NCBI RefSeq assembly: GCF_003670115.1 | Contig: NZ_QQTY01000004.1 | Span: 496,001 to 560,000 of the forward strand | DNA: 64,000 nucleotides | Source of the DNA: Natronorubrum halophilum | GTDB lineage: Archaea > Halobacteriota > Halobacteria > Halobacteriales > Natrialbaceae | Direction of reading: 5' to 3' | Shown: positions 41,255 through 45,832 of the stretch, in pieces | Layout: each line of letters starts with the position of its first letter | Numbering within the stretch: position 1 is the stretch's first letter | Notes under the pieces: generated by a model | What the model was told of the DNA's origin: nothing | Seen by the model: only the letters and a program-made list of their open reading frames with translations | Database searches by the model: none | Made by a program: the position numbers and the translations under genes

Positions 41255-42613
41255 TCAGGTCCGTTCGTACGCCCCGTTTCGCTCGAGTTCGCCGCGCTTT
41301 CGAAGCACGTCCGGCGTCCGGCAGATTCCTGGGGCACCGGTCACCTGCGGCACCGTACAGTTGTTACAGCTCTCACAGAGCACGCGCGAGCCGTCGTCTT
41401 CAGACCCAGTCTCGAGTAGTCGCGCCCCTAACCGCGGTTCGGCGTAGAAGGGCCGGGCCATGCCGACCATGTCGCAGGCCGGCGACTCCCCCCCGTCGCT
41501 GGATTCACCGCTCGAGTCCCCCAGCAACCGATCCATCCGCGCTCGCTCGCGGACCCCGCCCTCTGCCAGCACGGGTATCGACACCCGTTCGCGAACGCGC
41601 CGGCAGAAGTCCGCGTTCCACGCGGGTTCGAAGTCGTACTGCAGCGACTGGACCCGATTCGCCACCGAGACGAGTCGCTTGTGCGTCGGACCGCCGAAGG
41701 CCGCGTCGTACTCCGCCTGCAGTCCCTCGTTCGCCCACGCCCGCTCGGGGTACTCACCGCGGACGATGCTCATATCCCAGACGACCGACGTCTGGACGGG
41801 AACCACCGCGTCGTAGCCGATTTCTTCGAGTCGGCGGGCGATTTCGATCCCGTCCTCGAGCGACAGTTTCCGGCGAACGAGCGGCGACGGCGGCGCGGGC
41901 GTCTCGGCGGGCACCTTGGTCATCAGGGGGACGTCACCGGCGCGCTCGCGGATCTCCTCGTGGACGAGCGCGAGAAACTCGAGTCTGGCCTCGGGACTCC
42001 CACCGAACTCGTCGTCGCGGCGGTTGTAGAAGGGCGAGAGAAACTGCTGGACGATCCCCATGTTCGCGCCCGAGAGGTGGATGCCGTCGTAGCCCGCGTC
42101 GACGGCGTACTCGGCCGACCGGCCGAAATCGGCCGCGAGGTCGTACACTTCCGCAGTCGTGAGGACGTGCGGATCGTACTCGAGGAACCCGAGCCGATCG
42201 AGTGACTGCAACTGCCACGGCGGCTCCGAGACGGCGAGTTGCTCGAGGTCCGGATGCTCCCGTCGGTACTCGGCGTGCCAGGTCTCCATACTTCGGAGCC
42301 CGCCGTGCTCGAGTTGGAGGAAGATCCGGCTCCCGTGGTCGTGAATCCGGTCGGTGAGCCGCGAGAGCCGCGAGACGAACTCGGGGTCGTGGACGCGGGT
42401 CATCCCCGGCGCGGCACAGCCGCCGTCGCCGCGGACGATCGTCGCGCCTTGGCAGAGGAGTCCGACGCCCGACGCTGCGGCCGGCTCGAGGTCGTCGATT
42501 AGTGCGTCGACGGCGTCGGGGCCGTTGCCCGCACATTCGAGCAGCGGCGCGCGATAGAGCCGGTTCGGAATCGTCGTGCCGCCGATCTCGATGGGATCCT
42601 CGAGGGTGACCAT
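41255..42613 (-). CDS. NADH:flavin oxidoreductase of the Old Yellow Enzyme family
   Basis: A 452-residue flavoenzyme with the OYE barrel: N-terminal IGGTTIPNRLYRAPL, then GYDGIHLSGANMGIVQQFLS (His and Asn of the active site), FGGSPEARLEFL and a VLAEGGVRERARMD phosphate loop. The C-terminus carries CESCNNCTV and GAPGIC, suggesting a 4Fe-4S cluster as in 2,4-dienoyl-CoA reductase. The start at 42613 is chosen because the frame upstream is arginine-rich and unlike the family. It lies downstream of the ADH gene on the same strand. Confidence 0.85.
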   Translation of the reverse strand: MVTLEDPIEIGGTTIPNRLYRAPLLECAGNGPDAVDALIDDLEPAAASGVGLLCQGATIVRGDGGCAAPGMTRVHDPEFVSRLSRLTDRIHDHGSRIFLQLEHGGLRSMETWHAEYRREHPDLEQLAVSEPPWQLQSLDRLGFLEYDPHVLTTAEVYDLAADFGRSAEYAVDAGYDGIHLSGANMGIVQQFLSPFYNRRDDEFGGSPEARLEFLALVHEEIRERAGDVPLMTKVPAETPAPPSPLVRRKLSLEDGIEIARRLEEIGYDAVVPVQTSVVWDMSIVRGEYPERAWANEGLQAEYDAAFGGPTHKRLVSVANRVQSLQYDFEPAWNADFCRRVRERVSIPVLAEGGVRERARMDRLLGDSSGESSDGGESPACDMVGMARPFYAEPRLGARLLETGSEDDGSRVLCESCNNCTVPQVTGAPGICRTPDVLRKRGELERNGAYERT

Positions 42614-42717: not shown

Positions 42718-43761
42718 TTACGGCGGCAAGATAACCGCCCTCCCCTCGATCTCGTTGTGCTCGAGCCGTTCCGCCACCGTGTTGATCTCGTCCAGGTCGT
42801 GGCGTTCGGTGCGCAGTTCGACGTCGCCGCGGTCGACGAGCGCGACGAGTTCCTGCAGTTCGGCGTACTTGCCGACCAGTGTTCCCCGGAACGCGAACTC
42901 GCCGTTGACCAGCGCCTGACTGGGTTCGTGGACGTGACCGCCGTAGCCGACGACGTGGTGGTCGCCACCGGCGGCGACGATCTCGGGCGCGAGTCCGGTC
43001 GTCTCGTCGCCGCCGACGAAGTCGATTACCTGCTGGGCCCCAACGTCGTCGGTTAGATCCGCGATCACGCTCGCGATATCCTCGTCGGCGGAGTTGACGG
43101 TGTGACGCGCCCCTAAATCGTCGGCCAGTTCGAGCGCCTCGTCCTTGATGTCGGCGGCAACGATATCGGCGGCGCTCATCGCGTCGAGACACTGCAGCCC
43201 GATGTGGCCGAGGCCACCGACGCCGATGACGACGCAGGTGTCACCCGGATTCAGCTCGTCGACCGCTTTCTTCGCGGCGTGGTAGGCCGTGATCCCTGCG
43301 TCCGCGTGGGGTGCGATCTCGGTCGGATCGACGCCGTCGGGCAGCGGAATCACTGCGCGCTCGTTGGTCTGGAGGTACTCGGCGAAGCCGCCGTCGGTCG
43401 TGAGTCCGTTGAACGCGCTGTTCTCGCAGTACATGTCCTCGCCGAGTCGGCAGGGCCGACAGATACCACAGGTCTGGACGGGGTGGCAGACCACCGGATC
43501 GCCTTCTTCGACCAACGTTACCTCATCGCCGGTCTCGGCGACGATCCCGGCGTTCTCGTGTCCGAGCGTCATCGGTAGGTCCTGGGGTGCGTAGTCGGTC
43601 CACATTCCTTCGATGATGTGATTGTCCGTCTGACACCACCCCGCGCCTTTCACCTCGATCAGCACCTGATCGGATCGCTCGAGTTCGGGTTGGTCGACGT
43701 CGTCTATCGAGAGCGCTTCGCTCATCTCGTCGGTGTACTCGTGGAGTCGGGCTGCGTGCAT
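42718..43761 (-). CDS. Zinc-dependent alcohol dehydrogenase (MDR family)
   Basis: A 347-residue medium-chain dehydrogenase. Catalytic zinc ligands are in GWCQTDNHIIEG and LGHENAG; the structural zinc cysteines are in CHPVQTCGICRPCRLGEDMYCEN. The Rossmann motif is VIGVGGLGHIGLQC. ATG at 43761 is preferred over one five codons upstream. It is divergent from the amidohydrolase gene and is the first gene of a probable two-gene run with the OYE. It may oxidise a short alcohol, in line with the monooxygenase-like context. Confidence 0.92.
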   Translation of the reverse strand: MHAARLHEYTDEMSEALSIDDVDQPELERSDQVLIEVKGAGWCQTDNHIIEGMWTDYAPQDLPMTLGHENAGIVAETGDEVTLVEEGDPVVCHPVQTCGICRPCRLGEDMYCENSAFNGLTTDGGFAEYLQTNERAVIPLPDGVDPTEIAPHADAGITAYHAAKKAVDELNPGDTCVVIGVGGLGHIGLQCLDAMSAADIVAADIKDEALELADDLGARHTVNSADEDIASVIADLTDDVGAQQVIDFVGGDETTGLAPEIVAAGGDHHVVGYGGHVHEPSQALVNGEFAFRGTLVGKYAELQELVALVDRGDVELRTERHDLDEINTVAERLEHNEIEGRAVILPP

Positions 43762-43852
43762 GGTAGCACGCCCCACTTCACCGCCCTCGATGAAAACTAT
43801 CGCCCTACCTATCGAACGCCGTGAATGTGGCGGACATGATACACGTTCCGGA

Positions 43853-43919
43853 GAACACTAATCCAACGACTATCGTGTTCCCCACTACGTATATCACACG
43901 TCCCTGAATAAGTATAATG
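43853..43919. promoter_or_regulatory. Divergent promoter with inverted repeat, ADH / amidohydrolase
   Basis: GAACAC (43853-43858) and GTGTTC (43875-43880) form an inverted repeat extended to eight of nine bases, separated by 16 bases. A TATA-like gtataat at 43912-43918 lies about 30 bases before the amidohydrolase ATG (43947). The layout suggests one regulator for both divergent transcripts. Confidence 0.6.
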
Positions 43920-43946
43920 TTCTATGATAACGTTTAACTCCCCACG

Positions 43947-45011
43947 ATGTATCAGCACGACGGCGAGGACATCTTCGTCATCGACGGCCACGTTCACCTG
44001 TGGGACGCGACCGAGGAGAACATCATCCACGACGGCGGGGAACAGTTTATCCAGTGTTTCTACGATTATCACACGACGTTCACGCCAGCGGAGCGCCAGT
44101 GGAGCATGGACGAGTATCGGGAGTACGGCGCCGAGCGGATGATCGACGACCTGTTCTCGACCGCCGCCGTCGATATGGCAATCTTCCAGCCCACGTACCT
44201 CACCGACTTCTACGACGAGGGGTTCAACACGACCGAACAGAACGCCGAGTTGGCCGACGAGTATCCGGACCGGTTCGTCCTCAACGGCTCGTTCGATCCT
44301 CGAGACGCCGACCCGGGAATCGAGTACCTCGAGGAACTCCACGAGACGTACGACATCCCGGGCGTGAAACTCTACACCGCCGAGTGGCGCGGCGACTCGA
44401 AGGGGTGGCGACTCGACGACGAGGACGCGTTCCGCTTCCTAGAGAAGTGCGCCGATCTCGGTATCGACACCGTCCACGTCCACAAGGGGCCGACGATCCG
44501 GCCGCTGAACCGCGACGCCTTCGACGTGAAGGACGTCGATGACGCGGCCTCGTCGTTTCCCGATCTCAACTTCGTCGTCGAACACGTCGGTCTGCCTCGT
44601 CTCGACGACTTCTGCTGGATCGCCGCGCAGGAACCGAACGTCTACGGCGGGCTCGCGGTCGCCGCGCCGTTCGCCCAGAACCGGCCGGGTAAGTTCTCGG
44701 AGATCCTGTCCGAACTCCTCTGGTGGCTCGGCGAGGACCGCGTGCTCTTCGGTTCGGACTACGCGATCTGGAATCCCGACTGGCTCGTCGAGGCGGTTCT
44801 CGAAGCCGAACTCACTCAGGAGGATCGCACGGAGTACGGCGTCGAATGGGACGTCGAAACGAAAAAGAAGGTGATGGGCGAGAACGCCGCCGAACTCTAC
44901 GATATCGACATCGAGGCAAAGCGACGGGCGTTTCGGGACGACCAGATCACCGACCGGTTCGATCTCGGAGAACACTACGCGGGTGAGGAATCCGCGACGG
45001 CGGACGACTGA
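43947..45011 (+). CDS. Amidohydrolase-family TIM-barrel protein of monooxygenase-accessory type
   Basis: A 354-residue metal-dependent hydrolase fold. FVIDGHVHLWDATEENIIHD at the N-terminus provides the HxH metal motif. The following FIQCFYDYHTTFTPAERQWS is very like the start of the accessory amidohydrolases found in bacterial propane-type monooxygenase operons. Later FGSDYAIWNPDW gives the C-terminal aspartate. The enzyme may assist assembly or salvage rather than catabolism. It overlaps the DUF59 gene by one base. Confidence 0.87.
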   Translation: MYQHDGEDIFVIDGHVHLWDATEENIIHDGGEQFIQCFYDYHTTFTPAERQWSMDEYREYGAERMIDDLFSTAAVDMAIFQPTYLTDFYDEGFNTTEQNAELADEYPDRFVLNGSFDPRDADPGIEYLEELHETYDIPGVKLYTAEWRGDSKGWRLDDEDAFRFLEKCADLGIDTVHVHKGPTIRPLNRDAFDVKDVDDAASSFPDLNFVVEHVGLPRLDDFCWIAAQEPNVYGGLAVAAPFAQNRPGKFSEILSELLWWLGEDRVLFGSDYAIWNPDWLVEAVLEAELTQEDRTEYGVEWDVETKKKVMGENAAELYDIDIEAKRRAFRDDQITDRFDLGEHYAGEESATADD

Positions 45012-45832
45012 TGACCGCAGATCGTTCCGACGGCCCGACTCGAGCGGCCGTTCGCGATCGGCTGGATCGGGTCACCGATCCGGAACTCGACCGTTCGATC
45101 GTCGACCTCGAGTACATCGATGCGATCGAGATCGACGGCGAACGCGCCAGCGTCGCGTTCACGCTGCCGACGGCGTGGTGCTCGCCGGCGTTCGCCTGGA
45201 TGATGGCGGTCGACGCTCGCGACGCAGTCGAATCGCTGCCGTCGATCGAGACGGCCTGGATTACGCTTTGCGAGCACATGCACGACGACGAGATCAATCG
45301 CGGCGTGAACGAACGACTGTCCTTCGGTGCGGCGTTTCCGGATGCTGACGGCGACATCGAGGCAGTTCGTGCGGAACTAGACGAGAAAGCGCGCGTTGCA
45401 CGGCAGTACGACGCCGTCGAGACGCTACTGGACGCCGGACTCGGGGCGGGTGTCCTCGTCGAACTTCGGCCTCGGGATCTCGACGGTATCGACCTCGCTC
45501 GAGCCGTCGACGATCAGCCGACCGCCACCGAGGCGGAAGCCGATCCGGTCGACGGACTCTCCATCTACGTTCGCGATCGCTCGTTTGCCGTCACCGTCCC
45601 TGCGGAACCGATCGAACGCTACCTCGAGAAGGCTCGTGAGACAGGCCTCGTCTCGGAACCGGACGAGATCCTGTTCCGAACTCCCGAGGGCGACCCGATC
45701 GACGCCGAGTCGTTCGACCTCGTCCATCGGCGTGGACGACTCGCACGGGTCAATATGTCGAGCCAGGGCGGAATCTGCGACGGCCTTCGGGAATCCAGAG
45801 ACGGTCGCCGCGAGGAAGCCGCGGACGACTGA
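45011..45832 (+). CDS. MIP18/DUF59-family metal-cluster assembly protein
   Basis: A 273-residue protein with an N-terminal DUF59 domain: VTDPELDRSIVDLEYIDAI and VAFTLPTAWCSPAFAWMMA with its conserved cysteine. The rest (WITLCEHMHDDEINRGVNE and DEKARVARQYDAVE) again resembles the partner of the monooxygenase-accessory amidohydrolase. It begins at the overlapping TGATG of that gene, so the two are co-translated. The C-terminal 140 residues are acidic and not recognised. It probably helps metallate an iron protein. Confidence 0.87.
   Translation: MTADRSDGPTRAAVRDRLDRVTDPELDRSIVDLEYIDAIEIDGERASVAFTLPTAWCSPAFAWMMAVDARDAVESLPSIETAWITLCEHMHDDEINRGVNERLSFGAAFPDADGDIEAVRAELDEKARVARQYDAVETLLDAGLGAGVLVELRPRDLDGIDLARAVDDQPTATEAEADPVDGLSIYVRDRSFAVTVPAEPIERYLEKARETGLVSEPDEILFRTPEGDPIDAESFDLVHRRGRLARVNMSSQGGICDGLRESRDGRREEAADD

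Follow-up and report, generated by a model that had tools for sequence, protein, structure and literature searches.

An alcohol dehydrogenase, amidohydrolase and DUF59 gene trio conserved in haloarchaea without a propane-type diiron monooxygenase

The genes for an alcohol dehydrogenase (ADH), an amidohydrolase and a DUF59 protein in Natronorubrum halophilum form a conserved trio of haloarchaea. They were analyzed in a stretch of 64,000 nucleotides (hereafter the window). The self-contained nature of this unit, the absence from the genome of the diiron monooxygenase that accompanies related genes in bacteria, and its presence in about three in ten of the related species sampled suggest that the trio has a job of its own. 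Our preferred reading, held tentatively and with slightly less than even confidence, is that an amidohydrolase-fold metalloenzyme and the DUF59 protein dedicated to its maturation form a two-protein unit, which together with ADH would constitute a stand-alone catabolic or detoxification module.

The ADH gene (42718–43776, minus strand) encodes a zinc medium-chain, NAD-type enzyme with Pfam matches to ADH_N and ADH_zinc_N; it starts with GTG, and an alternative ATG is located at 43761. The amidohydrolase gene (43947–45011, plus strand) encodes an Amidohydrolase-2 metal-dependent enzyme of 354 aa (Amidohydro_2, PF04909, 3e-45), and the DUF59 gene (45011–45832, plus strand) encodes a MIP18-fold protein of 273 aa (FeS_assembly_P, that is DUF59, PF01883, 1e-14). 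The stop codon of the former and the start codon of the latter have one base in common (TGATG). These open reading frames and Pfam matches agree with the three gene calls of the original prediction. The intergenic region between ADH and the amidohydrolase (43777..43946) likely contains divergent promoters serving the genes on both sides. A GGTANCA/TGTTACC-like element, some 21 bases ahead of the amidohydrolase start codon, was present in 27 of 71 upstream regions against 2 expected from shuffled sequence, the motif having been picked post hoc; this element (within 43880–43946 in the window, and in relatives) is a possible operator or initiator element. Downstream of the trio lie the KEOPS subunit Cgi121 and a large helicase-like protein, both of which are syntenic background, and the Natronorubrum and Natrinema loci are collinear with the trio and its flanks.

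The distribution of the amidohydrolase was surveyed in 392 genomes of the order, one for each of 392 species. It was present in 113 (approximately 29%) and in 43 of 95 genera, a count made at E ≤ 1e-60 that takes in one outlier of 35% identity (G154). Identity among the haloarchaeal relatives was 57–87%. DUF59 followed the amidohydrolase in 68 annotated haloarchaeal loci, and the two genes adjoined in nearly every genome having them. ADH was located beside the pair in about 60 of these 68 loci, mostly in divergent orientation, and was the sole further gene conserved there across haloarchaeal families. Small zinc-ribbon-like proteins (60–67 aa) were encoded on the opposite strand just downstream of DUF59 in about 20 haloarchaeal loci (L052, L053 and others).

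An OYE-like flavoprotein gene (41255–42613, minus strand; Oxidored_FMN, 5e-36) adjoins the trio, and it had been proposed to take the place of the missing monooxygenase parts. Of 61 relatives, 47 have this gene; among them are three without the trio (G001, G003 and G005) and four others in which it lies far from the trio (G022, G024, G029 and G049); it adjoins the trio only in Natrialbaceae. OYE is therefore a common haloarchaeal gene that neighbors the trio by happenstance, and a functional replacement of monooxygenase components by OYE was rejected. In three loci (L032, L033 and L042), a gene resembling VIT1/CCC1-type iron/manganese transporters by eye was observed beside ADH, between it and OYE.

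The amidohydrolase and DUF59 are genuinely related to accessory genes in bacterial propane-type soluble diiron monooxygenase (SDIMO) operons, as had been predicted from their resemblance; identity, operon context and phylogeny agree on this point. In a tblastn search against plasmids, the amidohydrolase was 50–60% identical over about 90% of its length to members from Caballeronia, Rhizobium, Aminobacter, Paracoccus, Gemmobacter, Ponticoccus, Bradyrhizobium and Rhodococcus, followed by a gap down to about 35%. The annotated operons have the order hydroxylase alpha, reductase, hydroxylase beta, coupling protein, (ADH), amidohydrolase, DUF59 and GroEL, and the order in Rhodococcus is amidohydrolase, DUF59, ADH and GroEL. 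An equivalent conserved gene set has been described downstream of prmABCD (PMC4428276). The group 5 propane/acetone operons (prm/mim) share with the locus here an amidohydrolase (53–60% identity across about 92% of its length), a DUF59 protein of the long form (26–43%) and an ADH of the secondary-alcohol type (42–48%). They differ in that here the hydroxylase is absent from the genome, no other operon genes lie beside the trio, ADH is divergent rather than co-directional, and the haloarchaeal proteins form a separate clade.

In the amidohydrolase tree, whose bacterial sequences came from plasmids only, the 66 haloarchaeal sequences grouped in a single clade (97/98). Its sister was a single bacterial clade (99/93) comprising the operon-linked and three stand-alone members, with Thermomicrobium branching first. 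The haloarchaeal and SDIMO-linked amidohydrolases were jointly monophyletic (100/99) against an outgroup of 29–35% identity, and the DUF59 tree likewise separated haloarchaea from bacteria. The haloarchaeal proteins did not fall in an unrelated clade, in line with the predicted kinship, but nesting within the operon-linked bacterial clade was not seen. Judged from these sequence comparisons, the haloarchaeal genes appear to be neither inside the operon family nor unrelated to it.

The pair had no hydroxylase beside it at three bacterial loci, in Thermomicrobium, Peribacillus and Rhizobium N324. The megaplasmid of Thermomicrobium roseum carries DUF59, amidohydrolase and ADH genes without an adjoining hydroxylase, as here; unlike here, the three genes are co-directional and preceded by an IclR regulator, and a toluene-type SDIMO with a Rieske protein is located about 370 kb away on the same plasmid. 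The stand-alone pair neighbors a DJ-1/PfpI protein in Peribacillus and a glyoxalase in Rhizobium N324. At L068 and L067, bacterial loci with no monooxygenase beside the pair, the pair was followed by a DJ-1/PfpI or lactoylglutathione lyase gene; these two families are involved in methylglyoxal handling. Pseudonocardia cells growing on acetone or 2-HIBA contain large amounts of the amidohydrolase-like Mim-cluster protein (PMC7176365), which fits the module proposed here but does not tell a part in hydroxylase maturation from one in product metabolism.

The pairing extends beyond the operon family. Four of the five outgroup amidohydrolases (29–35% identical) adjoin a short DUF59 gene of their own, confirmed by Pfam, and such a gene was absent beside the fifth (L157). 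The neighbors of these distant pairs were a thiolase and an SDR in Natrinema and an aldehyde dehydrogenase and AMP-binding protein in Natronorubrum; by eye, they were LysR-like and alpha/beta-hydrolase-like in Sinorhizobium and IclR-like in Nonomuraea. Among 31 genomes, 14 amidohydrolase–DUF59 neighbor pairs were counted against 0.03 expected, five of them with an amidohydrolase of the distant type. The adjacency is not due to chance. Since four of five distant amidohydrolases, located in other operons, adjoin a short DUF59 gene, the pair predates its link to the monooxygenase and occurs more widely. Read most simply, these data mean that DUF59 and the amidohydrolase work together. We found no literature on the two as a pair, nor any assigned role for these genes of the propane/acetone monooxygenase operons.

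The DUF59 model had a mean pLDDT of 85, and its N-terminal domain matched DUF59 and CIAO2B structures. The C-terminal extension of about 160 residues was largely helical and gave no confident structure match. Cys57 was present in 80 of 80 sequences and in all four distant ones. His89 and Cys256 mark the long form and varied little or not at all across about 80 sequences; the long DUF59 with the extension and Cys256 was found in 79–80 of 80, including the SDIMO-linked family. The N-terminal fold and invariant Cys are common to the SufT/MIP18/PaaD (DUF59) family, unlike which the protein here carries an extra C-terminal domain with the nearly invariant Cys256. Neither suf nor paa genes were seen neighboring DUF59 here. 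DUF59 proteins are known to act on Fe-S clusters and not on mononuclear sites, and no obvious Fe-S cluster motif was found in the amidohydrolase, whose three well conserved Cys (37, 168 and 223) are scattered; both points, like the lack of an adjacent DUF59 gene at L157, count against the preferred reading.

The pair had also been suggested to serve a different iron enzyme. DUF59, with or without the amidohydrolase, might mature an oxygenase or Fe-S enzyme encoded elsewhere, the amidohydrolase then being a second accessory factor. We regard this as somewhat unlikely. SufT-like DUF59 proteins do act in Fe-S protein maturation (PMC4982691), and SDIMO operons place the pair next to a diiron enzyme; however, no third enzyme gene besides ADH is conserved by the pair in haloarchaea, and the operons in which DUF59 follows an amidohydrolase have no common iron enzyme. 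The nearest candidate for such an iron enzyme is the amidohydrolase itself. A more general proposal, which we consider doubtful, is that the amidohydrolase and DUF59 represent a general, undescribed enzyme–maturase pair, with DUF59 assembling an iron or Fe-S center in an amidohydrolase-fold enzyme and the "accessory" genes of propane operons being one instance that would act on the ketone product and not on the hydroxylase. We know of no amidohydrolase fold that uses an Fe-S center.

The amidohydrolase residues kept across close and distant members are D13, N25, D76, K141, H179, K180, D196, H213 and N231. H15, D271 and Cys168 were conserved only within the close group, and Cys37 and Cys223 nearly so. 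No close solved relative was found by sequence, the matches being weak or of repeat type. The active site and metal site were beyond inspection because the AlphaFold model, based on a shallow alignment, had a pLDDT of 64. This low-confidence model matched the folds of LigJ hydratase, LigW decarboxylase and ACMSD. The amidohydrolase here shares its fold family with these PF04909 decarboxylases and hydratases and, unlike them, is paired with DUF59.

Another possibility is that the amidohydrolase itself is an amidohydrolase-related dinuclear oxygenase (ARO) like AibH2, with a diiron or Mn/Fe center served by DUF59. The ligands of AibH2 are D25, H27, H211, E265, D337 and H340. By motif mapping rather than superposition, the amidohydrolase lacks a conserved D-x-x-H at the last ARO ligand site, on strand 8, where residues 271–274 read D-Y-A/G-I/L, and by motif order its sixth strand carries a conserved His (H213) and not the ARO Glu. 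The AROs AibH2, PtmU3 and SfbO also belong to PF04909 (PMC7782822, PMC10811679), and an iron-handling partner would be explained, but the ligand motifs do not fit, no Rieske ferredoxin or reductase gene is conserved beside the trio across the haloarchaeal loci, and AROs were not among the fold matches. We judge this identity improbable.

In the proposed module of amidohydrolase, DUF59 and ADH, DUF59 would help to load or assemble the metal center of the amidohydrolase via Cys57 and, in the long form, Cys256. The best solved relative of ADH was Aeropyrum pernix ADH (1h2b, 3e-97), followed by R. ruber ADH-A (5e-57), and by sequence the enzyme appears to be NAD-dependent and of the secondary-alcohol type, related to ADH-A. 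The divergently encoded ADH would oxidize a small alcohol, probably a secondary one. The carbonyl compound so formed, or a product of it, may then be handled by the amidohydrolase through hydrolysis, hydration or decarboxylation, as its nearest structural relatives do. From the ADH kinship and the bacterial operon context, we infer a substrate class of small alcohols, ketones or their products. Some bacteria carry this module alongside GroEL and a diiron monooxygenase for propane/acetone, and on this reading the trio here is no remnant of such an operon.

The original prediction noted that the window contains no hydroxylase, and the absence proved to be genome-wide. A profile search of the entire 4.67-Mb genome (approximately 99.99% complete) detected no PF02332 (Phenol_Hydrox) hydroxylase, whereas the same search gave matches in its positive controls, 9 of 13 plasmid records and three haloarchaea. 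The suggestion that the hydroxylase lies elsewhere thus found no support in this genome, nor in other carriers, as none of the 113 amidohydrolase-bearing genomes of the order had a PF02332 match. The coupling protein MmoB/DmpM (PF02406) was not detected in a genome search run without a positive control, and GroEL was neither noticed among the predicted genes of the window nor conserved beside the trio in haloarchaeal loci. PF02332 matches were obtained in only three of the 392 genomes (G025, G236 and G362), all of which are without the amidohydrolase or trio. Their SDIMO clusters are of the toluene-4-monooxygenase type, with two hydroxylase subunits, TmoB, a Rieske ferredoxin, MmoB and a catechol-dioxygenase-like protein. 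At L085 (G025), L086 (G236) and L087 (G362), alpha, beta, TmoB, Rieske and MmoB genes were observed, as shown by Pfam for L086, and the L087 cluster contains a catechol-2,3-dioxygenase-like (ring-cleavage) gene. As the only haloarchaeal SDIMOs found in the 392 genomes are of this type and occur in genomes without the amidohydrolase, they were rejected as a hidden partner of the trio. Despite the high identity to operon-linked bacterial members, it is very improbable that the trio is left over from a lost diiron monooxygenase operon or serves one missing from the assembly, given the near-complete genome and 113 carriers without PF02332, a haloarchaeal clade that is sister to and not within the bacterial one, and candidate active-site residues that are kept with no decay. 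An accessory set without its monooxygenase is accordingly the wrong frame, as the carriers are all hydroxylase-free and their proteins form a separate clade.

It is easy to assume that the amidohydrolase and DUF59 genes in operons for propane/acetone monooxygenases aid the hydroxylase. Their occurrence with ADH as a hydroxylase-free unit in approximately 29% of the sampled haloarchaeal genomes, and the DUF59 genes next to much more distant amidohydrolases, are arguments for the pair having its own chemistry. Because no monooxygenase is present there to confuse the result, the role of the pair would be testable in a tractable archaeon.
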